Source: a virus. Taken from it: a DNA stretch of 64,000 nt. The stretch lies in IMG/VR virus record IMGVR_UViG_3300036879_000022, positions 20,383 to 84,382 of that record; one strand, 5' to 3'. Both the position numbers and the translations under genes were made by a program. Positions 45,259 through 64,000 of this stretch are shown piece after piece. Position 1 is the first letter of the stretch. Every line of letters begins with the position of its first letter. The notes beneath the pieces were generated by a model. The model was not told the origin of the DNA. It worked only from the letters and a program-made list of their open reading frames with translations, and ran no database searches.

Positions 45259-45324
45259 CTAATTCCCAGTTGTCTCCGGGAACGTTGCGCGCTAAGTTCA
45301 ACGCCCAATCGCCACCCGGAGACA
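45259..45324 (+). promoter_or_regulatory. CTAATTCCCAG element and leader hairpin
   Basis: CTAATTCCCAGTTGTC (45259-45274) recurs almost exactly at 50,335. TTGTCT, 16 bases, CTAAGT is a possible promoter. TGTCTCCGGG (45271-45280) and CCCGGAGACA (45315-45324) form a 10-bp stem, with CGTTG/CAACG inside. Confidence 0.5.
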
Positions 45325-45329
45325 CGCCC

Positions 45330-45578
45330 ATGGCCCGCCTCAAAGCCAAGACCCGCAACAAGCTCCCCGCCTCGAAGTTCGGCCTGCCCGGTGCCAAGGG
45401 CAAAGGCAAAGCCAAGGGCAAATACCCGATGCCCGACAAGGCCCATGCGGAGGACGCCGAGGGCCGGGCGACCCAGATGGTCGCGAAGGGCAAGCTGTCT
45501 CCCGAGCAGGCCTCGAAGATCAAGCACAAAGCTGAAGCGGTCCTCGGCAAGCACGACTGCAAGTATCACAACTGTTGA
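45330..45578 (+). CDS. DUF6582-like protein, 82 aa
   Basis: KLPASKFGLPGAKGKGKAKG, KYPMPDKAHAEDAEGRA, QMVAKGKLSPEQASKIKHKA: the LPxSxFGxPxxRxYPxPDxxHAxNAxAR pattern is widespread in phages near virion genes. A proposed link to head maturation is not proven. Confidence 0.75.
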   Translation: MARLKAKTRNKLPASKFGLPGAKGKGKAKGKYPMPDKAHAEDAEGRATQMVAKGKLSPEQASKIKHKAEAVLGKHDCKYHNC

Positions 45579-45590
45579 TCGGAACGCGCC

Positions 45591-46085
45591 ATGGCAAAAG
45601 ACGCCCTCGGACACGGTAGCGAAGGACGCGGCGCGCATGCGGGCGCGGTCGCGCGTGTTGGCTTGCAGAACCCGAACCACCCGATATACAACACGGCGCA
45701 GAAGATGCGCGGCTACAATGGCCCGATCTCGCCGCTCACTGCCGACTACAGCACTGGCGGCAGGATGCTGCGGGATCGCACGAGCGGCATGACGAAGGAT
45801 GAGCACATGGCTGCGGGCGATCAACACGCCCAACAGTCGGGAGCACTTCGCGCGGCCCACGGTGGTGCTGTTGATACGGCGATGCGTGGCCTTCAGGGGC
45901 GCGACCCCGGCCCGCTGATCTCCGGCATCGTCTCGGACAAGTTCTCGGCCAGCGACAAGGGCAAGCTGCGGGACTTGGCTGTCGGCTCCGGCAAACACAC
46001 GAGCGCAGCGTTCGCGCACTACGCCGCCGCTGGAATGCGGATCGGCACCGCACGCACGCGGTTTCACTCAGTAAGGGGTACGTGA
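45591..46085 (+). CDS. MKDALGHGS-family protein, 164 aa
   Basis: First member of the array: MAKDALGHGSEGRGAHAGAV. The rest is Gly/Ala-rich with QQSGALRAAHGGAVDTAMRG and a helical end. No known domain. It shares the first ten residues with eight further short genes downstream. Confidence 0.65.
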   Translation: MAKDALGHGSEGRGAHAGAVARVGLQNPNHPIYNTAQKMRGYNGPISPLTADYSTGGRMLRDRTSGMTKDEHMAAGDQHAQQSGALRAAHGGAVDTAMRGLQGRDPGPLISGIVSDKFSASDKGKLRDLAVGSGKHTSAAFAHYAAAGMRIGTARTRFHSVRGT

Positions 46086-46086
46086 C

Positions 46087-46458
46087 ATGAAGGACGCACT
46101 CGGACACGGATCGAACGATCGCGGCGGCGCAGGCCTCCACTCGGCTGGCGTGCAAGCGACGCCCCAGCTTCAGCGCCGGCACTTCGAAGCCATCGCAGCC
46201 GATCTGAAGGCGCAGGCTCCAAAGTCGTGGGGCGACAACAGCTCCAAGGCGAACTCGGACGCGAACGGCGCACACATGGCCAAAGTCAATGATGTCGCGG
46301 ACAAGCTCGCGATGACCAACCCGGGCTTCCGCCGAGATTTCTTCGTCAAGGCGGCGACGCCGGGCGGCGCGTACAATAACAAATCGCGCGAGCGATCGGC
46401 GACGAAACCGGGCTTCGCGTCGAAAGTGAGCAGGGCGAAGAAATTCGCAGGGATGTGA
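46087..46458 (+). CDS. MKDALGHGS-family protein, 123 aa
   Basis: MKDALGHGSNDRGGAGLHSA, then a helical body (HFEAIAADLKAQAPKSWGDN) and a basic end (SRAKKFAGM). Starts 1 base after the previous stop. Confidence 0.65.
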   Translation: MKDALGHGSNDRGGAGLHSAGVQATPQLQRRHFEAIAADLKAQAPKSWGDNSSKANSDANGAHMAKVNDVADKLAMTNPGFRRDFFVKAATPGGAYNNKSRERSATKPGFASKVSRAKKFAGM

Positions 46459-46461
46459 GCC

Positions 46462-46782
46462 ATGAAGGACGCACTCGGACACGGAAGTAACGGCGTCGGC
46501 GCGCAGCTTCGGCAGCGGATCGATGCGGATCGGCATATGTTCGGCGGACCCCGTCCGACGCTCCTGCGCGACAACACGTCGAACGCGCAGGCCGCGCGAT
46601 CTCTCATGGGCAGCTTGAAGTCCACCATGGTCCCCGTGCACGACAGCATGGCCGGCCGCGCATCGAACCCGACCTCGCAACGCGGGCCGACTGATCTGGG
46701 CAACCGGATCAAGTCCGCTGTAGGGCGCGGATCGAACTCGGAAGATCGCGCGGCGTTCGCCGCATGGAACGGACTGAAATGA
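46462..46782 (+). CDS. MKDALGHGS-family protein with VPVHDSM motif, 106 aa
   Basis: MKDALGHGSNGVGAQLRQRI at the start and NAQAARSLMGSLKS, MVPVHDSMAGR in the middle. The second motif recurs in six other small genes of the array. Confidence 0.65.
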   Translation: MKDALGHGSNGVGAQLRQRIDADRHMFGGPRPTLLRDNTSNAQAARSLMGSLKSTMVPVHDSMAGRASNPTSQRGPTDLGNRIKSAVGRGSNSEDRAAFAAWNGLK

Positions 46783-46961
46783 AACGGCACAAGCGGGTCA
46801 CGAACAAAGACGCGGCGAGAGAGCTTTCGAGCGGCTACGGCCCGGCCCCGGTTCACCCCGCAATGGTTTCCATGGCGACGGTCTACGCGGCGGACAAGGA
46901 CCCGGCTGCAAACGCAACGGATGCATCGGATGACACGGACGACCAAGGCGGAAGTGACTGA
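46779..46961 (+). CDS. VPVHxxM-motif protein, 60 aa
   Basis: MKRHKRVTNKDAARELSSGY, then PAPVHPAMVS and an acidic tail. Lacks the KDALGHGS start but has the second array motif. ATGA overlap upstream. Confidence 0.6.
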   Translation: MKRHKRVTNKDAARELSSGYGPAPVHPAMVSMATVYAADKDPAANATDASDDTDDQGGSD

Positions 46962-47112
46962 TCAGGACGTGAAGGTCCATCTCGCGCTCGGCGGCGGCAA
47001 ATCTCACGAGGCGCCGATCCATCCTGCGATGATCGGCAAAGGGCAGAACAAACTCGAAGTCGGCTCAACTCTGGGCTATGGCATCGGATCAGCGATAGGA
47101 GCGGGCACATGA
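46954..47112 (+). CDS. VPVHxxM-motif protein, 52 aa (GTG start)
   Basis: GTG with AAGGCGGAA just upstream; TDQDVKVHLALGGGKSHEAP then IHPAMIGKGQ. Ends in a Gly-rich stretch (GYGIGSAIGAGT). Overlaps both neighbours. Confidence 0.55.
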   Translation: MTDQDVKVHLALGGGKSHEAPIHPAMIGKGQNKLEVGSTLGYGIGSAIGAGT

Positions 47113-47582
47113 AAGACGCACTCGGACACGGAAGCAACGGCGGCTGGGGCCAGCATCCCGCCACCGGAAAGCTGAAGACCGCTTCGAAGTATCAGTCGTT
47201 CAACGGACGCATGGACGCCGTCGTCCGGACCGAGCGTATGCCAGCCGGACATCTCTGGCAGCATGGAAATCAGTATGGCTACGCCAACAGCGTGGCCGAC
47301 GCCAAGGCGACCGTCGAGAGCCGCGTTGCCGACGAAGACCGATACAAGACGCACGAGCCGGTCACCACGTCACAGTTCGACGGACCGCGCGAGCGGTCGG
47401 GGCTGGGCAACGCGACGCACAACGAGAACGGTCACGCATGGGGATCGCCCGAGGCGCTGAAAGACTTCAAGGACAAATACAACCGGGGCCGTGCCGAGGG
47501 CAACGCGAAGAACCGGGCAGAAGGCAAAGCGTTCCGCAGTGCCAAGGGCGAGATCAACCGTCTCCGCAAGCAGGGGAAGTGA
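47109..47582 (+). CDS. MKDALGHGS-family protein, 157 aa
   Basis: MKDALGHGSNGGWGQHPATG; later QFDGPRERSGLG, which is repeated in the next gene, and a charged helical end. ATGA overlap upstream. Confidence 0.65.
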   Translation: MKDALGHGSNGGWGQHPATGKLKTASKYQSFNGRMDAVVRTERMPAGHLWQHGNQYGYANSVADAKATVESRVADEDRYKTHEPVTTSQFDGPRERSGLGNATHNENGHAWGSPEALKDFKDKYNRGRAEGNAKNRAEGKAFRSAKGEINRLRKQGK

Positions 47583-47583
47583 C

Positions 47584-48009
47584 ATGGCGAAAGACGCAAA
47601 AGGCCACGGGTCCAACAGCCACGACTATAGCGGCGTCAAGACCTATCCAGCTATCACAGGCTTCGAAGGTCTCCGCAAGTCGCTCAATCTGGACGCTCTT
47701 CAAGCGGGCGGTCAGCCGGTCTCTGGCAACGCCAACGCAGCTCACGAGCTTTCGAGCGGCGGTCCGAAGTCGGTAGCGTCTCCGGTCCATGACAGCATGG
47801 TCGGCGCGAACGTGTCGCAGTTCGACGGACCGCGCGAGCGGTCGGGGCTGGGCGCGCACGACCAAGCGGTCAAGGATTTCAAAGAGGGTCGGATGACGCA
47901 CGGCGACATCCCGCCTCGGACCCCGTCCGAGCGAAACGTCAAGGCTCTCAATGAGAGCACGGGCTACCGCATTCGCAACGGCACCCTTCGCGGCAAACCC
48001 GGGAAATAA
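47584..48009 (+). CDS. MKDALGHGS-family protein with VPVHDSM and QFDGPRERSGLG, 141 aa
   Basis: MAKDAKGHGSNSHDYSGVKT, then AAHELSSGGPKS, SPVHDSMVGA and QFDGPRERSGLG: three shared array blocks in one protein, so it shows how the modules combine. Confidence 0.65.
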   Translation: MAKDAKGHGSNSHDYSGVKTYPAITGFEGLRKSLNLDALQAGGQPVSGNANAAHELSSGGPKSVASPVHDSMVGANVSQFDGPRERSGLGAHDQAVKDFKEGRMTHGDIPPRTPSERNVKALNESTGYRIRNGTLRGKPGK

Positions 48010-48022
48010 CGGAGCAAGTGAC

Positions 48023-48208
48023 ATGAAAGACGCAAAAGGTCACGGCAGCAATGAGCGCGGCGGCACCAAGCCGAACGCAAAGGGCATGCGGCTCATCAAG
48101 ACCCATGTGCTCGGGCCGCACTCAGCGAAGGTCTACAACAATCCCGAGTGGGGCGAGAAGGTCGTGCAGACGTTCCGCAACGGCGTCTATCAGTCGAAGA
48201 ACGACTAG
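48023..48208 (+). CDS. MKDALGHGS-family protein ended by an in-frame amber codon, 61 aa
   Basis: MKDAKGHGSNERGGTKPNAK, then KVYNNPEWGEKVVQTFRNGV and YQSKND before TAG at 48,206-48,208. The same frame goes on with HTDDLADAHATAQSQLKRWD, which looks native, so the TAG seems to interrupt one longer gene (163 residues with read-through). GGAG 8 bases before the ATG. Confidence 0.65.
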   Translation: MKDAKGHGSNERGGTKPNAKGMRLIKTHVLGPHSAKVYNNPEWGEKVVQTFRNGVYQSKND

Positions 48209-48514
48209 CACACCGACGATCTCGCGGACGCGCATGCGACCGCGCAATCGCAGTTGAAGCGCTGGGACGATCAAGATGGCGGCGGTGGCATGATGGGGGC
48301 CATGAAGGCCAAGCTTTCCGACGATATCGCCGCCGGCCGCATGCTGAGCAGCGGCGGCCCGAAGTCGGCGGCGGTTCCGATCCACGACAGCATGCAATCC
48401 GCGTCTCGCGCGTTCTCGGACAAGAATAACGAAAAGTGGGGCTCGTATGCTAACGTCGGGAACGCAAAGGCGAATGACGCCGTGTTCGGTTCCGGACGGC
48501 ACAAGCTCACGTAG
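48209..48514 (+). pseudogene. downstream half of the amber-split array gene
   Basis: Continues the frame of the previous gene after the TAG, with GRMLSSGGPKSAAVPIHDSM, one copy of the second array motif. No good ribosome site starts it alone; TTG 48254 or ATG 48290 are possible. It is made either by read-through of TAG, by internal initiation, or not at all. Confidence 0.55.
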
Positions 48515-48526
48515 GGGCAGCACGAG

Positions 48527-48781
48527 ATGAAAAACGTTCGCGGTACATCGGGGACGAACCGGCTCGCTGACGAGGGGGCGCGCGGCTTTGTGACGGCTCC
48601 CGGAGTGCGCGGCTTCGCCACGTCCACACAGAACACCGACGCGGCCAACGAGCTGGCCAGCGGCCCGAAGTCGCGCATGGTACCGGTTCACGACAGCATG
48701 AGCGGCTACAACGGCGTGCCGGTCCCGAGCGATAACATTCAGGACATGGCGCGGCAGCGCGGATATCAGGCGGCATCATAA
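48527..48781 (+). CDS. VPVHDSM-motif protein, 84 aa
   Basis: MKNVRGTSGTNRLADEGARG, then AANELASGPKSRMVPVHDSM. The start is a diverged form of the array N-terminus. Confidence 0.6.
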   Translation: MKNVRGTSGTNRLADEGARGFVTAPGVRGFATSTQNTDAANELASGPKSRMVPVHDSMSGYNGVPVPSDNIQDMARQRGYQAAS

Positions 48782-49002
48782 TGGCACCAATGCAACGGAT
48801 TTCCAAGCCGACCCACTCGGTCGGGGTCACGATCGCCGTCCCGCATACGCGGTTCGCGCCGACGCCGAATATGTCGCCGCTGGAGATCGCGTTCCGGAAG
48901 GGACAAGAGGCTAAGCGCCTCGGCCGTCCGGCGGAGAGCCCGCACACGGACAATGAAGTGGGCGAGCTTGCAAAAGAATGGGAACGGGGATATGGGTCAT
49001 GA
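48781..49002 (+). CDS. hypothetical protein, 73 aa
   Basis: Starts MAPMQRISKPTHSVGVTIAV; MSPLEIAFRKGQEAKRLG and ELAKEWERGY are helices typical of short phage proteins (A...G...A......P). Overlaps the previous stop by one base. Confidence 0.6.
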   Translation: MAPMQRISKPTHSVGVTIAVPHTRFAPTPNMSPLEIAFRKGQEAKRLGRPAESPHTDNEVGELAKEWERGYGS

Positions 49003-49193
49003 ACATGATTTGGGTAACAGCGCCGAACGGGGTCAGGTTCGAGATCGACCCCGAGAAGATCAGCGTCCTTGAGCCGGCTCAGCCGGGCATGTACGCGCCG
49101 GGAGCGAAGGCGGTTTTTCGCGTCGATGGCGAGATGCATGCAGTCAAAGAAACCGTCGCTCAAATCGACACCATGCGTGGGGCGGGAAAATGA
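48999..49193 (+). CDS. FlbD-like small protein, 64 aa
   Basis: MIWVTAPNGVRFEIDPEKIS (from the second Met), VFRVDGEMHAVKETVAQI: the MIxLTxxNGxxFxxNxxxI...V.Gx...VxExxxxI layout is that of the FlbD/YlzI family of short beta proteins. Role in a phage unknown. Confidence 0.55.
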   Translation: MNMIWVTAPNGVRFEIDPEKISVLEPAQPGMYAPGAKAVFRVDGEMHAVKETVAQIDTMRGAGK

Positions 49194-49405
49194 AGGACGC
49201 TCTGGGGCACGGGAGCGTGAGCAATGCGGACGCGGCGAATGCGCTTGCGAGCGGCGCGAAGTCGGCGATCGTTCCAGTCCATGCTAGTATGAGCGAGGAC
49301 ACTGCACTCGAAATATCGCGGCTCGAACGCCGCGCGTATGAGAACGTTAGACGGAAAGCAGCTTCGCAACAGTTGGGCGAAGCGTGGAAGGGGCTAGGTC
49401 AATGA
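49190..49405 (+). CDS. MKDALGHGS-family protein with VPVHxSM motif, 71 aa
   Basis: MKDALGHGSVSNADAANALA, SGAKSAIVPVHASMSE, then RRAYENVRRKAASQQLGEAW. Both array motifs are fused to a C-terminal helix that also occurs alone at 41,330-41,500 on the other strand. Confidence 0.65.
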   Translation: MKDALGHGSVSNADAANALASGAKSAIVPVHASMSEDTALEISRLERRAYENVRRKAASQQLGEAWKGLGQ

Positions 49406-49656
49406 AGGACGCTCTGGGACACGGCAGCAACCCGCAAGGCTTGATGGTCGCGCACCAAACGGGAGTGCGTAAGGCGATCGGCTTCAAGGTCGAGAAGCAT
49501 CTCGCGTTCTCCGGCAGAACGGCCGCCGGCCAGCGCAACCTCGCGACCGGCAACGTCTGGGGCAAGGTCGCTGGCGGCAAGCGGCGCGCGGTCGCGGAGA
49601 AGATCGCGATGGGCGCGCGAATTGACAACCCGAACTCAAGGATCAGGATCAGATGA
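49402..49656 (+). CDS. MKDALGHGS-family protein, 84 aa
   Basis: MKDALGHGSNPQGLMVAHQT, then a basic body (KVAGGKRRAVAEKIAMGARI). ATGA overlap on both sides. Confidence 0.65.
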   Translation: MKDALGHGSNPQGLMVAHQTGVRKAIGFKVEKHLAFSGRTAAGQRNLATGNVWGKVAGGKRRAVAEKIAMGARIDNPNSRIRIR

Positions 49657-50108
49657 AAGACGCACTCGGACACGGAAGCAACGGCCTGCACGCGGGCGGC
49701 GTCAACAAGATCGGCAATCTCCCGGTCCACCCGAACGAGCTGCGCACGATCCAGAAGAACCCATGGGGCGCGAGCGTGAAGCCGCAGACCGGTGTCTCGC
49801 CGACGACCGGGTACATGGTTTCGATACAGGGCCGCACTCAGAGCCCGACCTCGGCGGCGCTCGCCGGTCCGCAGGGTGCGAGCATCATTCGCGACTACGC
49901 GCGCAACAACTCCGATCTGTTGCAGAAGCCTGACATGCACATCGGGAGCCGGGCCGACGAAACCGGTCGCACGCATCTCGACGTGTCGCAGAACATCCCT
50001 GATCGCGCGACTGCTGTCCAAGAGGGGCGTCGTCGCAATCAACAGGGTATCTGGGATGTTGCCCGCAAGAAGTTCATCGGCACGGGCGGCACGGGAGACG
50101 CGGCATGA
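49653..50108 (+). CDS. MKDALGHGS-family protein, 151 aa
   Basis: MKDALGHGSNGLHAGGVNKI; the body has a short beta part (GYMVSIQGRTQSPTSAALAG) and DETGRTHLDVSQNIPDRATA, a phrase common in phage proteins of this kind (LDxSxNxxDxxxA). Function unknown. Confidence 0.65.
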   Translation: MKDALGHGSNGLHAGGVNKIGNLPVHPNELRTIQKNPWGASVKPQTGVSPTTGYMVSIQGRTQSPTSAALAGPQGASIIRDYARNNSDLLQKPDMHIGSRADETGRTHLDVSQNIPDRATAVQEGRRRNQQGIWDVARKKFIGTGGTGDAA

Positions 50109-50338
50109 TCAGTGCAACGAAGAGCCACGTGAAGTGGGATCGCGGCAATCGGAGTGTGACCGATGACGAAGCTGCTGACGTTCTTGCAAATGGCCATCCG
50201 AAGAGTGGTCCGCCGAGTTTTCCTGAGCCCGCTAAAGTTCTGCCGGGCGCGCCGGGCGCTGGCGCGGCTCCGGGCGCGAACGGCCCGCCTACGACAGGCG
50301 CGTCGGTAGGTCCGGGCGGGCCATTGGGTTCGATCTAA
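50105..50338 (+). CDS. array-edge protein, 77 aa
   Basis: MISATKSHVKWDRGNRSVTD, AADVLANGHPKS, then a Pro/Gly-rich tail. The AADxLxxGxPKS block is a worn form of the second array motif. Last member of the array. Confidence 0.6.
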   Translation: MISATKSHVKWDRGNRSVTDDEAADVLANGHPKSGPPSFPEPAKVLPGAPGAGAAPGANGPPTTGASVGPGGPLGSI

Positions 50339-50374
50339 TTCCCAGTTGTCCCGGAGAAGCTCTCCGCGTATGCT
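50335..50374 (+). promoter_or_regulatory. CTAATTCCCAG promoter element
   Basis: CTAATTCCCAGTTGTC (50335-50350); TTGTCC, 17 bases, TATGCT (50369-50374). A small hairpin CGGAG-AAGCT-CTCCG lies in the spacer. Same element as at 45,259. Confidence 0.5.
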
Positions 50375-52098: not shown

Positions 52099-52121
52099 CA
52101 CGACTATTGGAGGATATCCGC

Positions 52122-52946
52122 ATGAGCGGCATTGATGACACCGATCTCGCTGATCTTCTCGGCCCCGATCCACTCGGTGCCGAAGCCGAAGAAATTCTAG
52201 TTGATGTGACCCCGCCGAAATCGCGTCCCATGGGCGCAGCGAGCCGAGGCGTCCTAGAACGATCGCGCAGCTACCCCGTCAACGCTGCCGCCCGAGCAAG
52301 GCTCCCTGACCGCCTCAGCCGTCTGCTCAAGAACATCTCTGAAATCCCGATCGCAACGGACGCCGCGCGCCGCGCCGGCATTAGCCTGTCCCAGCTCAAG
52401 TATATGCTGCAAAAATCCAAGGAGGGTCGCTCCGGGGACGGGTATGACGTGGCCCTTCCGGAAGGCGAAGATAACGGCACCCCCGATAACACCGAACGGT
52501 TTCACGTCGTGTGGGAAGATGCGATGAGTGAAGGCCTCGGCAAAGCAGAGACGGCCGCGTGGGCTCTCGGGGTCGGCTTCAACGAAATCCAAGCTCACAA
52601 GGGTCGTGTCCAATACCGAATTGACCCGGAGAAGTACGATCTGTTCGTTCTGCTCGGCGACCCCATTGACGAGCGCAACCCGAGCCTATGGCTTCGCGAT
52701 GAAGTTGGGGCTCCAGTCCCCGAGACAATCTTCAAGCAGGACCCGGATATGCTCCGGTGGCTGCTCGAAAACCGCAAGCCGAAGGAATATGGCAAGCGAG
52801 CTGCTCTCGATCTGAATGTTACGGGCGGTGTTCTCGTGGTCGGTATGAAGGCGGCTACGTCGGAAGAGCTAAACGAAATCGAAACCGAATATCGCAAGGT
52901 CGGTCGTCCCGCCGTCACGTTCGAAGAGAGCGACGGGGACGTGTAA
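52122..52946 (+). CDS. terminase small subunit-like protein
   Basis: 274 residues. RLLKNISEIPIATDAARRAG is a helix-turn-helix-like stretch, followed by a second DNA-binding-like part (AWALGVGFNEIQAHKG). LLENRKPKEYGKRA near the C-terminus is usual in small terminases just before the large subunit gene. GGAGG 8 bases before the ATG. It would recognise the packaging site on phage DNA. Confidence 0.75.
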   Translation: MSGIDDTDLADLLGPDPLGAEAEEILVDVTPPKSRPMGAASRGVLERSRSYPVNAAARARLPDRLSRLLKNISEIPIATDAARRAGISLSQLKYMLQKSKEGRSGDGYDVALPEGEDNGTPDNTERFHVVWEDAMSEGLGKAETAAWALGVGFNEIQAHKGRVQYRIDPEKYDLFVLLGDPIDERNPSLWLRDEVGAPVPETIFKQDPDMLRWLLENRKPKEYGKRAALDLNVTGGVLVVGMKAATSEELNEIETEYRKVGRPAVTFEESDGDV

Positions 52947-54535
52947 TGGGTTTTCCTTGCGTAGCAAAATTTGTCCAAGATAGGAATGGGGCTTACGTCC
53001 CATACTATCTTGACGACGACAATGTACTCAGGGCCGCGATTTGGTGCCCGCAACCGGGTTCGCAGGAGTTCTTTCTGGCGGACCCGACGATGGAAGTTCT
53101 CTACGAGGGCACGCGCGGCCCCGGCAAAACTGACGCGCTCATCATGGACTTCTGTCAGGATGTTGGCAAGGGCTGGGGCGCGGAGTGGAAGGGCATTCTG
53201 TTTCGACAATCGCATCCGCAGTTGCGCGACATCATTGAGAAGTCGAAGAAATGGATCAAGCGCATTTGGCCGGATGCGATCTACAACGAAGTCAAGACGA
53301 TGTGGGAGTGGCGGACAGGCGAGCGCCTGTACTTTGCCCACTTCAATGTCCGAAGCGACTATGACAACTATCACGGCCACGCTTATCCGTGGATTGGTTG
53401 GGAAGAGTTGACGAACTGGCCGAGCCCGGACTGCTATATCAGCATGTTCTCGTGCTCGCGTTCGACGATCAAAGGGATGCCGCGCAAGGTGCGCGCGACG
53501 ACGAACCCCTATGGCGTCGGGCATAACTGGGTCAAGGCACGTTGGCGGCTGCCGATCAACGGCGAGACGATCAACGGCCGCAAGCCGACAGTCGGTCCGC
53601 TCATTCAGGATAGCGTTGATGCGGCGGGTAACAAAGAGCCGCCGCGCCGCGCCATCCACGGCTACCTCGACGAGAACGTGCTGTTGCTGCATGCCGACCC
53701 CGAGTACAAGAACAAGATTAAAGCGGCAGCCCGGAACGCATCCGAACTCGCGGCGTGGATGGATGGCTCGTGGGACATCGTCGCGGGCGGCATGTTCGAC
53801 GACATCTGGTATGAGCACAAAGACGCGATCGTCATGCCCCCATTCGACGTGCCGCCGGGATGGAAAATTTATCGGGCCTATGACCACGGCTCATCGAAGC
53901 CGTTCTCGGTTGGCTGGTACGCCGCCAGCGATGGCACCGATCTGAAGCTACGCGATGGGCGCACGCGCGCGACCGTGCGCGGCGACCTCTTCCGTATCCA
54001 CGAATGGTACGGCTGGCGTGGTCAGCCGAACGAAGGCGCTCGATTGTTGGTCCCGGATATCGCGAGGGGCATCATTGAGCGCGAGATCAAATGGGGCCTC
54101 CGTGATCCGCAGGGCACGTGGACCCGCGTGAGCCGGGGGCCAGCCGATAGTTCGATCTTCGACGCCGATCAGAAGGCGACGACCGTGTCGATCGCCGACG
54201 ACTTCGAGAAGCCGGTTACAATCAACGGGATCAAGTTCAAGGGTATTTTCTGGGAGCGCGCTGACAAGGGTCCGGGCTCCCGCGAGCAAGGATGGGAGCA
54301 AATCCGCAAGCGGCTCAAGGCGACCAAACGTCCGCCCGGCGGCTTCCGGGAGACCCCCGGGCTGTTCATCACGACGGACTGCCCGCAATGGCTCCGGTGC
54401 GTGCCTGTGCTTCCACGGGACGAAACCGAAATCGATGACGTAGACGACGACGCGGAAGATCATAACGGCGATGAAACTCGGTACATGCTCCGCCACGAGA
54501 TCAGGACAACACGGTCGGGCCGCGTGGCGGCCTGA
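52946..54535 (+). CDS. terminase large subunit
   Basis: 529 residues. Walker A-type YEGTRGPGKTDALIMDF at about residues 53-69, an acidic Walker B-like strand PWIGWEELTNWP, and ATTNPYGVGHNWVKARW as coupling motif. The nuclease part includes IYRAYDHGSSKPFSVGWY and DSSIFDAD. It translocates and cuts DNA during packaging. The ATG shares one base with the upstream stop. Confidence 0.92.
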   Translation: MGFPCVAKFVQDRNGAYVPYYLDDDNVLRAAIWCPQPGSQEFFLADPTMEVLYEGTRGPGKTDALIMDFCQDVGKGWGAEWKGILFRQSHPQLRDIIEKSKKWIKRIWPDAIYNEVKTMWEWRTGERLYFAHFNVRSDYDNYHGHAYPWIGWEELTNWPSPDCYISMFSCSRSTIKGMPRKVRATTNPYGVGHNWVKARWRLPINGETINGRKPTVGPLIQDSVDAAGNKEPPRRAIHGYLDENVLLLHADPEYKNKIKAAARNASELAAWMDGSWDIVAGGMFDDIWYEHKDAIVMPPFDVPPGWKIYRAYDHGSSKPFSVGWYAASDGTDLKLRDGRTRATVRGDLFRIHEWYGWRGQPNEGARLLVPDIARGIIEREIKWGLRDPQGTWTRVSRGPADSSIFDADQKATTVSIADDFEKPVTINGIKFKGIFWERADKGPGSREQGWEQIRKRLKATKRPPGGFRETPGLFITTDCPQWLRCVPVLPRDETEIDDVDDDAEDHNGDETRYMLRHEIRTTRSGRVAA

Positions 54536-54609: not shown

Positions 54610-56301
54610 ATGGCACTTCCCGACAAGCACCCCGAGTACGTAGAGAGGCTGGGCGAATGGCTCCAGCTTTCGGACACCTATCAGGGCGAGCGCGCCGTCA
54701 AGTCGAAGCGGCTTGACTACCTGCCCGCGACCGAGGGAATGGTGCAGGACGGGATGACCACGCCCAGCTCCCCGGGCTGGCGCGACTACGAAGCGTACTT
54801 GATGCGCGCCTACTTCCACGACGTTGTCAAGGAAGCTGTCAAAGCCATGGTTGGCATCATGCACAACAAGCCCGCCGTGATCACGCTGCCCCCGCGCCTC
54901 GCCGGCATGATCGACCGGGCGACGATCCAAGGCGAAGGGCTCCAGATGTTGCTCCGCCGGATCAACGTCTCGCAACTCCTGTACGGCCGCTGCGGTCTTC
55001 TCGCGGACGCGCCGCAGGGCGTCGATATCGACAAGGCCACTCCCTACCTGTCCTTCTACGAGCCGATGCGGATCATCAACTGGGACGCCGGGCGCCTCAA
55101 TGAGGGCCGCAACGAACTCGACCTCGTCGTGCTCGACGAAAGCGGCTTCCGCCGTGAGGGCTTCACGTGGAAGACCGAACGCAAGTATCGCGTGCTGACG
55201 CGCGGCGGCCCGGAGAGCCTTGAGAGCGGCTGGGAACGACCGCCGGAGGGCTCGCCGTATTGCGTGGCCGTGAAGGTCAACGACAGCTCCATGCCCGTCA
55301 TGGAGGACTTCATTCAGCCGTCGATCGGTGGGCGCACGCTCCCGGCGGTTCCGTTCGTCTTCATCGGCGCCAACGATCTCGTACCCGAGCCCGAAGTGTC
55401 CCCGCTTCTCGGCCTGTCGAACCTCGCGCTCGCAATCTATCGAGCCGAGGCCGACTACAGGCAAACGCTGTTCACGCAGGGACAGGCCACGCTCGTCATC
55501 ATCAACGGCAACGTTGACGATGCGGCTCCCGACAAACTGCGCACCGGCTACAAAGGCGTTATCGATCTGCGCATGGGCGGCGACGCGAAGTATATCGGCG
55601 TGCCCGCCGCCGGGCTCGGCGAAATGCGTCAGTCGCTCAAGAGTGATATCGATGCCGCCGCTCTGGCGGGCATCGCGTTCTTGGACGTAGGCAACGCGCG
55701 CGGCGAGAGCGGCGAAGCTCTGCGCATCCGCGTCGCGGCGCGCACGACCACGATTTCATCCGTCGCTCAGTGCGCCGGCAAAGGGCTTGAGCAAGCACTC
55801 CGGTATTGTGCTGCTTGGGTTGGAGAAGACCCGAACGAAGTCTCGGTCAAGCCGACCACCGACTTCGCCGATCAGACTGTCGCTGGCGCCGCGCTGCTCG
55901 CGTTCATGCAGGCCAAGCAGCTTGGATTGCCCTTGTCGCTCCGTTCGATGCATCGCATGATGCAGATGAACGACATGACGGAGATGGATTTTGCGCAAGA
56001 GAACGCACAAATCGAAGAGGAAGCCGCTTCCATGCTGGGCTCTATGGTGGGTTGGGGCCAGTCGGCCAGCGTCACCGATGATACTTTCTTGGATGACAGC
56101 GTTGATCCGGTTCCCGGTCCGCCGTCAGAAGGCGGCACAACTCCGCCCTCTGCGACCGTTCCGCCGCTTGACCCCGCCCCGCCCATCCCGCCAAATTCGA
56201 ATGTGCCGATCGTCCCGACCGCTCGCGCAAAGGGCCACACCCGGGGATCGCCGGTCCCACTGAAGCGTAAGGTCGGCAAGAAGGGCGCGTCCGCTAAATG
56301 A
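54610..56301 (+). CDS. portal protein, DUF4055 type
   Basis: 563 residues. Starts MALPDKHPEYVERLGEWLQL; RAYFHDVVKEAVKAMVGIMH, LYGRCGLLADAP, SPLLGLSNLALAIYRAEADY are hallmark blocks of DUF4055 portal proteins. The C-terminus is Pro-rich and basic. It forms the ring at the head vertex through which DNA passes. Follows the large terminase as usual. Confidence 0.9.
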   Translation: MALPDKHPEYVERLGEWLQLSDTYQGERAVKSKRLDYLPATEGMVQDGMTTPSSPGWRDYEAYLMRAYFHDVVKEAVKAMVGIMHNKPAVITLPPRLAGMIDRATIQGEGLQMLLRRINVSQLLYGRCGLLADAPQGVDIDKATPYLSFYEPMRIINWDAGRLNEGRNELDLVVLDESGFRREGFTWKTERKYRVLTRGGPESLESGWERPPEGSPYCVAVKVNDSSMPVMEDFIQPSIGGRTLPAVPFVFIGANDLVPEPEVSPLLGLSNLALAIYRAEADYRQTLFTQGQATLVIINGNVDDAAPDKLRTGYKGVIDLRMGGDAKYIGVPAAGLGEMRQSLKSDIDAAALAGIAFLDVGNARGESGEALRIRVAARTTTISSVAQCAGKGLEQALRYCAAWVGEDPNEVSVKPTTDFADQTVAGAALLAFMQAKQLGLPLSLRSMHRMMQMNDMTEMDFAQENAQIEEEAASMLGSMVGWGQSASVTDDTFLDDSVDPVPGPPSEGGTTPPSATVPPLDPAPPIPPNSNVPIVPTARAKGHTRGSPVPLKRKVGKKGASAK

Positions 56302-58712
56302 CCTTCGACCCAAACGAAGAGCGGGACCCGCATGGGCGGTGGACGCGTGGCGGCAACGACACGGGCGAGATCGCGAAAGTGATCGACCCGCGTGTTGTTG
56401 ACGTGAGCGGCGACGACTGGAACAGGAAGACGGCGGAGCGGCTCGAAAAAGAGTACGCCGATGTACGGCCGGAGATTGACAAGATCGCGACCGAGGGCGT
56501 CGAAAAGCACGCGGGCGTTGCGCTCGGAGCCGAGCCCGAGGAAGAGGACGAAGACGCGCCTGTCGTTCCAGAGACATGGAGCGACTTGTCGGGCTCGCAA
56601 CAGGAAGAGGCTGAGCAGAGCTATATCGATAACCACATCGATCAGGAAAAAGAATACGCTGTCTCCAATTGGCAGGAGAACGGCGAAGCCCTTGTGGAGG
56701 CCAAGCATGCTCTCGCTAACGATGACGACTTCAAGAGTGAGTTCCTGAGCGAGTTTCTCGCTGACCGCGAAGCGAACGATGAGGCACGCATCCCTTTCAG
56801 TGCCGGCGATCTCGCGGGCGCGATCCATATTGAGGCGGGTGACGAACACAACGACGATCCGGCGATCACATTCGACGACAAATATCTGGACAAGCCGGAC
56901 AATTTCGCCCACGAAGGGCAGATGAGCTTCCCCGGGATTGAGCCGCAAAACCCGGCGGATTTCCTCACGCCTAAAATGCGCGAAGAGATCACAAATGCGC
57001 TGCTCGAAAAGTTTGAGGAAGAGGCCAAGTCCAAAGCGGAAAATATCGATCCGCCCGACTACCTCAATGAAGAGGCTCAGACCAACGTGCAGGAAGCATG
57101 GGGGAGTATGAGCGATGAGGACCAATTTGAATACGCAAAGGACCACGTTGACAGCCTCAAAGAGCAACTGGAAGAGCCTGCCAAAGTCGCGCGCACCCCG
57201 ACGATTGACCTTGCATGGCCTGAGAAATTCGATCCGCTTAACCTGACCTCGGGTCGCGACTACATGCGGACGCAGGCACTCGCGAAGTACATCGCCGACA
57301 AGCGCGGAGCGCAGTTGATCACTCAGCGTACCGATGCGGGCCTCATCGGGCGCAAGGGGAGGCTTGACACTCCGGCGGTTATCTCAGCTAGGGCCGTGCT
57401 CAACGATCCGAACTCCAATCCGGGGAACGTGGAGAGCGCCAAGAAAATTATCGCCGACTTCGAAAACGTGTCGGGTGGCTGGAAGCCCCGCGACAAGTTC
57501 CTCGGGTCGGATGCTGACTACGAAAAGCTCTATGGGACCGGCGGCGTCGGCGCGAAGAAAGATGCGGCGTGGACCGAGCGCATGATGAAAGAGCTTCAAC
57601 AGGTGGATTTCAAGCTTTGGTCCGGATGGAAGGGCAGCTCGACGAACGCGGAAGGCAGGCTGTTGCAGGTAGCGGCATCCGACGAACTCGGCGGCCGTAT
57701 CCGCGACGCGCGCCCGCCCAAATGGAAAGACCCGGCGAACGATCCTCCGGAAGTGGTGCTCGCGAAATCCGTCGTGGGCAATCCGAACTCTACGGCCGAG
57801 GACACGGGAAACCATAACCTCGTCATCGCCGCGTACAAGGATGGGGCGCCGCCGGCTATCTTGAAGGCCATGTCGGACGCCGCGCAGGGCCACAAGACGC
57901 CTGAGACGGACAAGATGATCATGGACTATCTCTCCAGTTCGACCGGGGCCAAAGAACGCGCCAAGGCCCCGAACTTGGACGCGGAGAGCTTTAACGGCGG
58001 CTACATCCGCCTGCCCAAAGTGGTCATCGAAAAGAACGGCGCGGCCTCGACGACGGTCAGCCGAGACGTGGCCAATGGTTGGAATGGCACGTCGAACAAC
58101 GCGCCCGAGGGGATCAACAAGAAAGAGAGCATCGAATACGCGAACCACGCCTACGCGGCGATCGGCGGCTACGAAGGCGTCAAGGCGGCGCTCCGTGCGA
58201 AGTGGGAGACGACGCAATACCTGCTCGACAAGGCCGACATCCCGGTTGTGCAGGCGTATCGCGGCATCACGTATGCGCACAAGCTCCCGGGCGCTGCGAA
58301 CGTGGGCGACTTCAACCCGCCCGCGTCCGGGATTGTTAAAGAGAGTGGCAGTCAACAAAGCGTCAATCTCGCGGAGATGCCGGTCGGGGCGAGCGTTAAG
58401 ATTTCATCGGGAAAGACCATCACTAAAGTCAGTGCCGAAGACTTGCCATCTGGATACGCGAAGGGCACGGGCAAATGGACTTATGCGGAGCCCAAGGAAA
58501 CACAGTCACGCATCGTGTTGCGCGCGGAAGTACCGCGCACCGCTGTCGTGTCTGTGCCCGCCTATGGCGTCAACGTCAAGAGCGAGCAGGAAGTGGTCGT
58601 CGTCGGCACCGGCTGGAAAGGCTGGGACGCTTGGTCCGGCCGCGCGCCCAGTTTCGAGGAAGTCCCGATGCACGCGCCGGCTCCGGCAGCCCCGAAGAAC
58701 CCGCAATCATGA
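56298..58712 (+). CDS. large virion protein with C-terminal ADP-ribosyltransferase-like domain
   Basis: 804 residues. N-terminus FDPNEERDPHGRWTRGG, a tag shared with the metallopeptidase at 59,146. A long acidic helical middle (residues 30-300) is unknown. The C-terminal 200 residues look like an R-S-E ADP-ribosyltransferase: VQAYRGITY with Arg655, and VKSEQEVVVVG with Glu763-Gln764-Glu765 as the ExE motif; the central Ser motif is less clear. Its place after the portal fits minor head proteins that are injected with DNA and modify host proteins. Confidence 0.7.
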   Translation: MTFDPNEERDPHGRWTRGGNDTGEIAKVIDPRVVDVSGDDWNRKTAERLEKEYADVRPEIDKIATEGVEKHAGVALGAEPEEEDEDAPVVPETWSDLSGSQQEEAEQSYIDNHIDQEKEYAVSNWQENGEALVEAKHALANDDDFKSEFLSEFLADREANDEARIPFSAGDLAGAIHIEAGDEHNDDPAITFDDKYLDKPDNFAHEGQMSFPGIEPQNPADFLTPKMREEITNALLEKFEEEAKSKAENIDPPDYLNEEAQTNVQEAWGSMSDEDQFEYAKDHVDSLKEQLEEPAKVARTPTIDLAWPEKFDPLNLTSGRDYMRTQALAKYIADKRGAQLITQRTDAGLIGRKGRLDTPAVISARAVLNDPNSNPGNVESAKKIIADFENVSGGWKPRDKFLGSDADYEKLYGTGGVGAKKDAAWTERMMKELQQVDFKLWSGWKGSSTNAEGRLLQVAASDELGGRIRDARPPKWKDPANDPPEVVLAKSVVGNPNSTAEDTGNHNLVIAAYKDGAPPAILKAMSDAAQGHKTPETDKMIMDYLSSSTGAKERAKAPNLDAESFNGGYIRLPKVVIEKNGAASTTVSRDVANGWNGTSNNAPEGINKKESIEYANHAYAAIGGYEGVKAALRAKWETTQYLLDKADIPVVQAYRGITYAHKLPGAANVGDFNPPASGIVKESGSQQSVNLAEMPVGASVKISSGKTITKVSAEDLPSGYAKGTGKWTYAEPKETQSRIVLRAEVPRTAVVSVPAYGVNVKSEQEVVVVGTGWKGWDAWSGRAPSFEEVPMHAPAPAAPKNPQS

Positions 58713-59146
58713 AAATCGATCTCAACAATCTCCCGGGCAAGCCCAGCCCCCTCGGCGACCCCCATTGGCTTTCGGGCTCGGGCAGGGTTGACCGCAAGGG
58801 TATCCATGAGCGCTACAAGGCGGCGCATCTCGCGGAGATCAAGGCGCGTCCGCGCAAGCCCGCGCGCCCGGAGACAACCGCCAAGCTTGAGGCCATGTCG
58901 GCGCGCGTCAAGAAGACCGAACAGGCGAAGCTGGTCAGGGTTTGGAATACCGCGATCGGGATCATTGACCGCACGGAGCCCCGGCTCCGCGACCTCATTG
59001 AGCGTGAGCTGATCGACGTGGCGGGCATCGATCATACGCGTGTCGGGGACGCGATGCAGGCGACCGAGGACCTCATGAAGCTGATCCGCCCCGTTCGAAC
59101 CAAGGCAATCAAGAAGGCCTTCCGATATCTGCGGGAGCATCTGTGA
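58709..59146 (+). CDS. hypothetical protein, 145 aa
   Basis: Starts MKIDLNNLPGKPSPLGDPHW; a basic linker and long helices (RLRDLIERELIDVAGIDHTR). Between two likely virion proteins, so perhaps also in the head. ATGA overlap upstream. Confidence 0.65.
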   Translation: MKIDLNNLPGKPSPLGDPHWLSGSGRVDRKGIHERYKAAHLAEIKARPRKPARPETTAKLEAMSARVKKTEQAKLVRVWNTAIGIIDRTEPRLRDLIERELIDVAGIDHTRVGDAMQATEDLMKLIRPVRTKAIKKAFRYLREHL

Positions 59147-60168
59147 TGGCGTATGATCCGAACGAACAGCGCGACCCGAAAGGTCAGTGGTCGGCCAGCG
59201 CGGGCGGCTTCGGCGCCCATTCCGAAGGGCCGTACATGGCCGTGGAGAAACCGGAGAACGCAGAGAAGGCGAACACGGTCGCCAAGATCGCTGCTCAGGT
59301 CGCGAAGAAACTCGATTTTGACCCGACCGGGATCAACATCTCGGATGAGAGCAAGACCTTCGAGTTGAACGGAAAGACGATGCCCTACGCTGGATGGGCG
59401 ACAGTTCCACCGGAGCCAACGCTGACGACTAACCCGGATGGGTCGAAACAGGTCATCGGAGGCGGGATCGGCACCGTGACGTTGTTCACGCCGCACGTCG
59501 GGAATGACCCGGCCGGGATCGCTGGCGTCACGGCGCACGAAATCGCGCATCAAAAGTTCAACGCCCTTCTGAGCGACAAGGCGGTCGATCAGCTCAAGAT
59601 GGCGCAAGACCCGGACTACGGCAAAGACACGCAATGGATCACATACGACAGTACCAACCCTGAGCATGTACGGATGAGCGTGAACGGGGCTATGGTTTCG
59701 TCACCGCAACCGGACGGGACCCAGAAAATCCGAGAGCCGGGCTTCATGAAGCCGGACGGCACGCTCAATGAGCCCTACGCGAGTAAGTATCCCGCGTATC
59801 AGCTCTACACGAAAGCGATGATGCCGATGGTCGCGGACTTCGCAAAGTCGGACGGCGTGTCCGACTACAGCAAAGAGTATTGGCAGGGCGTGCAGACGCC
59901 GAAAGTCGTAGAGTATGTGAAGGACGCCAACACGGGCGAGAAGGGCACGTATACGACGGCCTCCATCCCGCACCTGAGCGCGTTCCACGAAACCCTCGCG
60001 GAGATCGCGCGGCTCAAGTACGCGGGCCAGCCGGTCTACCATAGGAAACTCGGCGAGGTCGAAGGCAAACCGGTTTACTTTGCGCAGGGCACGAAAGGCG
60101 TCAAGCCGGCGTGGAGCACCCTCTACAAGGCGATCAATGAGAATTGGAAACGGCGGAACGGCAAATGA
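59146..60168 (+). CDS. virion-associated HExxH metallopeptidase-like protein
   Basis: 340 residues. N-terminal tag YDPNEQRDPKGQWSA as in the gene at 56,298. GIAGVTAHEIAHQKFNALLS carries HEIAH; the downstream FHETLAEIARLKYAG supplies a Glu ligand, so it has the gluzincin layout. It may be packed into the head and injected, or act in head maturation. Confidence 0.7.
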   Translation: MAYDPNEQRDPKGQWSASAGGFGAHSEGPYMAVEKPENAEKANTVAKIAAQVAKKLDFDPTGINISDESKTFELNGKTMPYAGWATVPPEPTLTTNPDGSKQVIGGGIGTVTLFTPHVGNDPAGIAGVTAHEIAHQKFNALLSDKAVDQLKMAQDPDYGKDTQWITYDSTNPEHVRMSVNGAMVSSPQPDGTQKIREPGFMKPDGTLNEPYASKYPAYQLYTKAMMPMVADFAKSDGVSDYSKEYWQGVQTPKVVEYVKDANTGEKGTYTTASIPHLSAFHETLAEIARLKYAGQPVYHRKLGEVEGKPVYFAQGTKGVKPAWSTLYKAINENWKRRNGK

Positions 60169-60604: not shown

Positions 60605-61453
60605 ATGTTGAAGACAATCTACGACACGGCCGAGGAAATTCCGGAGGGCTATGCCGCTCTCTACACGGAGCGGAACGGCAAATGGGAGTTGACCGGCGTC
60701 ACGGGTGTCAAGACCCAAGCCGACATCGATCGCGTACAGGCCGCGCTCGTGAAGGAGCGCAACGACCACAAGGCGGTCAAGACCGCGTTCGCGCCGTTCG
60801 AAGGGCTCGATCCCGAGGTCATCCACGCGCAGGCGACCGAGCTGGAGGAAACCAAGGCCCAGCTCGCCGCCGTCAAGAAGGATGGCACGATCGACGAGAC
60901 CAAGCTGGAGCCGATCATCACGGCCCGGCTCAAGCAGATCACCGCTCCGATGGATCGTGATCGGCTCGCTCTTGAGCGCCGGCTCGAAGCGCAGCAAAAG
61001 CTCGTGGCCGAAAAGGATGGCGAGGTCTTGAGCCTGAAGACCGCCATCACCACGGGCAACGTCGAGCGCGCCATCCGTGACGCAGCCGGCGAAGCCAAGA
61101 TCGTTTCGACCGCGATCTCGGATGCTGTCTTGCAGGGCAGCCGCGTGTTCGAGGCGACCGAGGATGGCCGCGTCATCACCAAGGATGTCCCCGGGGTTAC
61201 GCCGGGCTTGAACCCGCGTGAATGGTTCAAGGACATGCAGGAGAAGTCCCCGCATTGGTGGCCGGCGTCAGTCGGCGGCGGATCGAAGGGTGGCTCCGGC
61301 CCGGCCGGACGGGCGAATAACCCGTGGTCGCGCGAAGCTTGGAACCTGACCAAGCAGGGCGTCTACCTCAAGGAGTACGGCGAGGACAAGGCCAAGGTTC
61401 TGGCGGAAAGCGTCGGCTCGCACATCGGCGCGACCAAGCCGGCAGCGGCCTGA
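60605..61453 (+). CDS. capsid scaffolding protein
   Basis: 282 residues. EEIPEGYAALYTERNGKWEL and then a long coiled region (LEETKAQLAAVKKDG, RLEAQQKLVAEKDGEVLSLK) are typical of phage scaffolds. The C-terminus NPWSREAWNLTKQGVYLKEY is the block that binds the capsid protein in this family. It guides head assembly and leaves before DNA entry. Confidence 0.85.
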   Translation: MLKTIYDTAEEIPEGYAALYTERNGKWELTGVTGVKTQADIDRVQAALVKERNDHKAVKTAFAPFEGLDPEVIHAQATELEETKAQLAAVKKDGTIDETKLEPIITARLKQITAPMDRDRLALERRLEAQQKLVAEKDGEVLSLKTAITTGNVERAIRDAAGEAKIVSTAISDAVLQGSRVFEATEDGRVITKDVPGVTPGLNPREWFKDMQEKSPHWWPASVGGGSKGGSGPAGRANNPWSREAWNLTKQGVYLKEYGEDKAKVLAESVGSHIGATKPAAA

Positions 61454-61483
61454 GCCCTTCGCTAACTGCCAGTTGAGTACGAG

Positions 61484-61518
61484 AGCGCGTCCGCCTAAAA
61501 TGGCGGACGCGCTTTTTC
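61484..61518 (+). terminator. intrinsic terminator after the scaffold gene
   Basis: AGCGCGTCCGCC-TAAAAT-GGCGGACGCGCT, a perfect 12-bp stem, then TTTT. CTAACTGCCAGTTGAGT just before it (61,462-61,478) resembles the CTAATTCCCAG element. Confidence 0.85.
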
Positions 61519-61555
61519 CGTGCCCCGCAGGGGCATCGGCTTGCAAGGACTTCCC

Positions 61556-61930
61556 ATGATCTTGTCTCGCACATACGCGTCGCGAAAGGAAATTCCGCAA
61601 GGCGCAGAAGCCCTCTATACGCCGACCGGCAACCTATTCATCCTGAACGGGGCGAAGCACGACATCGTCGCGGATAATCCGTGGGAAGGCGACAACTGGA
61701 ATTTGACCGAGCAGGGGCGCTTCATCTCGCAATACGGGCTCGTGATCGCGGCTGCATTTGCGAAGATCGCCGGCACCAAGATCGGCGGCCTGAAGCCTCG
61801 CGCGGCGTATCAGCCGTCTCTCAAGGTCCTGATCCAGAAGCGCGATGTCACGACCAACATCTATCAGACCGGAGGCGGCGGCGGTGGGACCGATGACGCG
61901 CTCGTGGCTGGCCTCGTAACGAAGACCTGA
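61556..61930 (+). CDS. short scaffold paralogue with Gly-rich tail, 124 aa
   Basis: [20 protein letters not shown] matches the scaffold N-terminus, and [20 protein letters not shown] matches its capsid-binding C-terminus, but the 200-residue coil between them is missing. A new end follows ([11 protein letters not shown], six Gly, [12 protein letters not shown]). It may be a decoration or capsid-bound linker for the next gene. Confidence 0.7.
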
Positions 61931-61932
61931 CC

Positions 61933-64000
<2,068 letters not shown>

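Follow-up and report, generated by a model that had tools for sequence, protein, structure and literature searches.

What does a ten-residue leader do when it stands at the start of nine neighboring viral genes whose products otherwise differ? The question is raised by a 64,000-nucleotide stretch of DNA, here called the window, which comprises bases 20383 to 84382 of the 84,382-base uncultivated virus record IMGVR_UViG_3300036879_000022 in IMG/VR. Between positions 45591 and 50108, nine genes on the plus strand have translations that start with M(A)KDA[LK]GHGS (Table 1). A search of the window with a degenerate leader pattern, allowing up to three mismatches, gave 8 matches against 0.06 expected in shuffles, and the ninth tagged gene, with MAKDAKGHGS at 47584, was recognized in translation. 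An earlier note made from the DNA sequence alone had singled out nine such genes, rightly as these figures show, and had taken the leader for a sorting or packing signal. We consider it likely that the leader is a capsid-targeting (cargo-loading) tag for effectors that are injected with the DNA. A sorting or packing role is the best-supported reading because the leader occurs only at the N terminus, is predicted to be disordered, precedes unrelated bodies and belongs to morphogenesis loci with a common promoter-like element, and because the proteins exclude cysteine as ejected proteins do and include cargo of polyvalent and internal-virion type; packaging itself is predicted.

The leader was sought in other phages, as the earlier note had proposed, by a degenerate DNA scan over viral contigs, which gave 183 distinct tagged open reading frames (ORFs) in 53 stretches of uncultivated viral contigs. 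The carriers are a family of uncultivated soil and peat phages, mostly of one portal lineage: when 32 carrier records were tested, 26 had a gene homologous to that of the window portal, at 66 to 90% identity, and the remaining six may be fragmentary or come from different phages. A single phage can have as many as a dozen tagged genes, and the products are 128 amino acids (aa) long at the median and 205 aa at most. The core K-D-x-x-G-H-G-S was N-terminal in 182 of 182 distinct occurrences, beginning from residue 2 or 3 after the start codon. Some variants carry an inserted residue (MA-, MP-, MS-) ahead of an unchanged core, and the ten residues M(A)KDAxGHGS are frequently extended by NxRGG, followed in some proteins by AHxxGV. 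When a recurrent motif described below (motif B) was masked before clustering, the bodies behind the tag fell into 66 clusters, or about 66 unrelated families. The leader itself matched no family in Pfam, NCBIfam, PHROGs or PADLOC, a leader-only search of plasmids gave no match, and neither did a literature search with the leader letters.

Single leader-like matches in unrelated bacterial genomes were taken as chance, save for two contigs (L063 and L069) that were binned with metagenome-assembled genomes of Hyphomicrobiales and have two tagged genes each. These may point to Hyphomicrobiales as a host group; the portal of this lineage was not found in the genomes of the two contigs. One record from outside this lineage has a lone tagged ORF with two cysteines (L060:2775-2987), close to a large terminase gene that is also different.

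Contrary to the earlier note, the bodies in the window are not completely different from one another. Motif B (DAAxxLxSGxxKSxxxPVHDSM) recurs in several ORFs of the array, both tagged and untagged, with 57 of its 58 occurrences inside the array zone, and a 40-nucleotide stretch (SQFDGPRERSGLG) is 98% identical between two tagged genes; the array bodies are thus mosaics rather than wholly unrelated. Shuffling of modules such as motif B and SQFDGPRERSG would suit a leader that is a scar of recombination or duplication, a conserved gene start for module swapping that has no sorting role and that is carried by ordinary host-takeover proteins. The codon usage also offers something to this explanation, as GGA encodes the first glycine in 86 of the 183 leaders but makes up about 13% of glycine codons in the bodies, which indicates that leader DNA has been copied. 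However, the leader residues K, D, G, H, G and S are invariant, also where a residue is inserted, while all four glycine and all six serine codons are used, so that selection acts on the protein. The near identity of codons pointed out by the earlier note is present in the window but is only partly an effect at the DNA level, since codons vary among relatives while residues stay. Strong homogenization of leader DNA within genomes, which had been expected, was not found; codon identity within a genome was 0.55, barely above the 0.52 between genomes. A scar would furthermore leave the morphogenesis context and the cysteine exclusion unexplained, and we regard it as improbable.

In loci containing the gene for the large terminase subunit (TerL), all 142 tagged genes share the strand of TerL, and 141 of them lie 2.2 to 7.5 kb upstream of it, directly ahead of terS-TerL-portal. 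The window conforms to this, with terminase genes from about 52.1 kb, and the earlier note had correctly placed the array just before them. The one exception (L008) lies directly behind the portal gene, in the slot that holds a protein with a different leader, RDxxGRWT, in relatives. Distal tagged genes in the larger records examined lie among the tail genes, behind the one for the tape measure (phrog_3547, 1e-17 to 1e-19), and one cargo family reappears there at 47% identity. A promoter-like element (CCAGTTGT...TAWG) precedes both the array and the morphogenesis operon in the window and in relatives. Its identical 16-nucleotide core (CTAATTCCCAGTTGTC) occurs at 45259 and 50335 only, with the TAWG box about 20 nucleotides further on. 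In relatives, equivalent elements stand ahead of the two operons in 16 of 24 and 23 of 29 cases by a loose pattern, which has 17 matches over both strands of the 84-kb record.

The composition of the tagged proteins is unusual. Among 180 of them, with 22,382 residues, there were 4 cysteines, located in 3 proteins, one of which is the outlier L060. The corresponding controls were 0.99% cysteine for other genes of the same loci, 1.34% for those of 70 to 205 aa, and 1.52% for window genes before 45.3 kb, percentages that are approximate because the control gene models came from a simple script. No cysteine was present in 63 of 66 tagged families, and when the longest member of each family was taken, 4 cysteines were seen compared with about 80 expected. 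The tagged proteins are also basic (169 of 180), whereas portal and scaffold are acidic. Known ejected proteins served as the reference for cysteine counts: T4 IPI-III have none in 388 residues and are basic, T7 gp14-16 have 1 in 2,261, and P22 gp7, gp16 and gp20 have none in 1,309, together 1 in 3,958. Cysteine is present in TerL, portal, coat and most tail proteins of the same three phages. This cysteine-free pattern of ejected proteins was not found in searches of a limited body of literature or in one review of ejection proteins. Cysteine exclusion goes with the tag rather than with the fold: untagged homologues of the GNAT cargo have 4 cysteines in 408 residues versus 1 in 459 for tagged ones, and untagged homologues of another body family (family 0) have 4 in 517 versus none in 3,674. 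The untagged family 0 proteins are acidic and the tagged forms are basic.

These properties bear on whether the leader might instead dock the proteins to a common partner in the infected cell, such as a complex, a membrane, a protease or a host protein, with no connection to the virion. A short, conserved and disordered motif could be any docking peptide, and motif B, bound to the array zone, could be a second one. However, docking inside the cell does not predict the exclusion of cysteine, the shift from acidic untagged to basic tagged forms, or a promoter-like element in common with morphogenesis genes, and there is only a slim chance that it accounts for the leader.

The earlier note had imagined the cargo as peptides, which did not hold up: the cargo consists of folded domains and enzymes. 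Searches with Pfam identified ART-PolyVal in three tagged proteins (best 8.7e-14, another 1.5e-9), Arr in one (7.4e-7), ParB_N in one (2.7e-4) and the GNAT domain Acetyltransf_1 in one (4.2e-4), so that domains of the polyvalent repertoire are found in a minority of members. phrog_2563, annotated as an acetyltransferase in Streptomyces phages, matches tagged cargo at 2e-23. Two tagged proteins contain an HHEIGH motif, which by itself suggests a putative metallopeptidase; the AlphaFold2 (AF2) model of this cargo was poor, with a mean predicted local distance difference test score (pLDDT) of 47. The commonest body (25 members), modeled on the gene at 49653, is predicted to be well folded behind a disordered leader, with a mean pLDDT of 84.8, values below 50 for residues 1 to 19, and about 90 or more over most of residues 31 to 140. 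It is homologous to residues 785 to 905 of a 1,807-aa internal virion protein of cyanophage SS120-1 (profile E value 1e-9, Z=1e6), belongs to phrog_6651, which PHROG classes under head and packaging, and structurally matches parts of phage proteins of 767 to 1102 aa, one annotated with a zeta toxin domain. A fold search of the Protein Data Bank with this body gave no match. The tagged proteins may serve against host defenses, which is a guess.

This repertoire argues against two further explanations. In the first, the leader would anchor the proteins on the particle surface or on the tail, as decoration or accessory structural proteins, rather than inside for injection. The morphogenesis context and the copies in the tail module suit any virion protein. 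However, enzymes such as ART, Arr and GNAT have no obvious use outside the cell, the exclusion of cysteine is closer to ejected than to outer structural proteins, and one cargo shows homology to a segment of an internal virion protein; we judge an external location unlikely. In the second, the genes would encode peptide toxins or precursors like those of ribosomally synthesized and posttranslationally modified peptides, which they superficially resemble in their constant leader and variable body. Known leaders of such precursors are far longer than this one, and the bodies include folded domains (as in the body modeled) and enzymes in place of a short unstructured core and have almost no cysteine, leaving this explanation hardly any probability.

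Returning to the capsid-targeting tag, we infer that the tagged proteins are expressed late, bind a component of the head, be it scaffold, portal or capsid, are present in particles and are injected, and that they have targets in the host. During late expression the leader would recruit unrelated small basic proteins into the forming head; these would exit with the DNA through portal and tail and could act in the host immediately upon entry. The cargo would be single domains of polyvalent type (ADP-ribosyltransferases, GNAT, ParB-like and others not yet assigned) held as separate, exchangeable genes, in a tandem array ahead of the terminase with further copies behind the portal and the tape measure genes. 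Several observations weigh against this model. The tag was absent from all isolates in the 50,697 phage records searched, and most tagged bodies have no match to a known family in Pfam and other libraries. Homologues of the cargo in other phages have no leader, and some lie near genome ends. A T4-type prohead protease site, (L/I)xE, falls within the first 25 aa of only 2 of 183 leaders, so that removal of the leader is unsupported. The promoter-like element resembles sigma-70 promoters, and its late activity is presumed from sequence. Cysteine is missing also from the scaffold and from a few further structural proteins, for example P22 gp26, and its absence therefore marks ejected proteins imperfectly.

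The earlier note knew of no described system of this kind, which is right only in part: T4 internal proteins with a capsid targeting sequence (CTS) work in the same way (PMC3012670), with a leader of unrelated sequence. In T4 the internal proteins are a highly diverse set of defense proteins in which only the CTS is conserved (PMC3012670). IPI, IPII, IPIII and Alt share with the tagged proteins a short common N-terminal leader on diverse small proteins, and IPI-III are likewise basic and free of cysteine. By inspection, the T4 sequences (MKTYQEFIAEA, MKTFKEFTSTT) are unrelated to MKDALGHGSN, and the tagged leaders are, as a rule, without the LxE cleavage site. The carriers further differ from T4 in their head module with a DUF4055 portal, in the number of tagged genes and in the polyvalent-type enzymes among the cargo. 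Homology to a known internal virion protein, looked for as a trait of T7- and P22-type ejection proteins, was seen in the one body family that matches part of the SS120-1 protein. MuF fusion effectors differ, as the tagged ORFs have no MuF or portal match in Pfam. Encapsulins use a short terminal cargo-loading peptide to bring unrelated enzymes into an HK97-fold shell; they are cellular nanocompartments without injection, whereas the tagged leader would act through a predicted contact with the capsid. In P1, a phage that delivers antirestriction proteins, DarB has a targeting region able to bring a heterologous reporter into the capsid (PMC9024508); however, DarB is one 250-kDa protein in a stepwise Dar pathway, with no short tag common to many small genes. 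Polyvalent proteins, for which injection together with the phage DNA has been predicted (Iyer et al. 2017, PMC5512222), have domains (ART, GNAT, ParB-like) that overlap with the tagged repertoire, but there the domains are fused in one long protein and here they are in separate small genes joined by the tag. Payloads of contractile injection systems (PVC/eCIS) have N-terminal signal peptides that load unrelated effectors into a phage-derived particle (PMC11495950). This is comparable to the tag by description and differs in that a tail tube, helped by an AAA ATPase, is loaded rather than a DNA-filled head.

The array genes are close-packed, with ATGA start/stop overlaps at some junctions (Table 1). 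The stretch given in the earlier note runs to 50338, but its last gene is without a leader. The frame of the shortened leader gene 6 continues as a remnant to 48514 and includes motif B; the gene is intact (163 aa) in the near-identical contig L026, and the same short form was seen in contig L042 from another sample. A match of the ORF at 48527 to vRNAP was weak (E value 0.0069) and was not used.

Table 1. Features of the window from the array operon to the scaffold region (aa, amino acids)
Position	Strand	Feature	Basis
45266..45296	+	Promoter-like element CCAGTTGTC...CTAAG before array operon	Core identity; kept upstream of same gene in relatives
45330..45578	+	First operon gene, basic, 82 aa, no leader, 2 Cys	phrog_16160, E 1.4e-18; Cys count
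45591..46085	+	Leader gene 1, MAKDALGHGSEGRG, 164 aa	ORF translation
46087..46458	+	Leader gene 2, 123 aa; body family 1 (LQRRHFEAIAxxLK...NPGFRRDFF)	Translation, body clustering
46462..46782	+	Leader gene 3, 106 aa, motif B (KSTMVPVHDSM)	Translation
46779..46961	+	Leaderless ORF, motif B (DAARELSSGYGPAPVHPAM), no Cys	Translation, Cys count
46921..47112	+	Leaderless ORF, motif B-like KSHEAPIHPAM	Translation
47109..47582	+	Leader gene 4, 157 aa, SQFDGPRERSGLG module	Translation, repeat comparison
47584..48009	+	Leader gene 5, MAKDAKGHGS, 141 aa, motif B and SQFDGPRERSGLG module	Translation, repeat comparison
48023..48208	+	Leader gene 6, shortened by in-frame TAG 48206-48208	Translation; phrog_7884
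48527..48781	+	Leaderless ORF, motif B	Translation
49190..49405	+	Leader gene 7, 71 aa, leader then motif B at once	Translation
49402..49656	+	Leader gene 8, 84 aa; body family 3; ATGA overlap with gene 7	Translation, body clustering
49653..50108	+	Leader gene 9, 151 aa; commonest body family	AF2 model; homology to internal virion protein
50105..50338	+	Last array ORF, leaderless, degenerate motif B	Translation
50342..50372	+	Promoter-like element, second copy, before morphogenesis operon	Core identity; kept in relatives
52107-52946	+	Small terminase subunit gene, assigned by position	Adjoins portal region as in RDJL3, Vid5; homologues in relatives
52943-54535	+	Large terminase subunit gene	Adjoins portal as in RDJL3, Vid5; homologues in relatives
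54610..56301	+	Portal protein	Pfam DUF4055, 2e-15; ~45% identity to annotated portals
56298..58712	+	804-aa protein, second leader type MTFDPNEERDPHGRWTRGG, no Cys	Translation, Cys count
59143..60168	+	341-aa protein, MAYDPNEQRDPKGQWSASAGG leader, HEIAH motif, no Cys	Translation, Cys count
60605..61453	+	Head scaffolding protein, no Cys, acidic	phrog_206, 1.3e-38
61469..61499	+	Promoter-like element, third, looser copy, between scaffold and next gene	Pattern match

The annotated portals to which the window portal was compared are those of Roseobacter phage RDJL3 and of Pseudomonas phages such as PaMx25. Just behind the portal gene, a second N-terminal leader, M[TA][FY][DN]P[ND]ExRDxxG[RQ]W, was seen on differing bodies, in two proteins of the window (56298-58712 and 59143-60168) and in L010, L021, L033, L043, L050 and L061. 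All four RDxxGRWT proteins counted were free of cysteine, and this leader may be a parallel tag. A small protein at 61520-61930 has the scaffold motifs of both ends, EIPxGxxALYT at the N terminus and NPWxxxxWNLTxQG at the C terminus, with the middle of the scaffold missing; small proteins with the C-terminal motif were also seen in L009, L021 and L061. A collagen-like protein with GxTGATG repeats (61933-63999) extends past the end of the record.

Taken together, the ten-residue peptide could be a general, portable code by which cargo is loaded into the heads of a single phage lineage. Domains that are elsewhere fused in giant polyvalent proteins would there be kept as exchangeable genes, each with its own tag, and new cargo would join them by gain of the tag and loss of cysteine, with the near absence of cysteine perhaps a general signature of proteins ejected through the tail; we put the chances of this wider picture at about even. 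If the leader is a capsid-targeting tag, phages whose head module differs from that of T4 would have a targeting code not related to the T4 one, and about 180 candidate injected proteins would be named from sequence alone. Tag, cysteine exclusion and position would together provide a search key for injected effectors of uncultivated phages, and the leader, as a short and portable tag, could serve to load proteins of choice into phage heads. With the cysteine-free signature, common also to ejected proteins of T4, T7 and P22, injected proteins could be predicted and the predictions tested in any phage for which there is proteomics.

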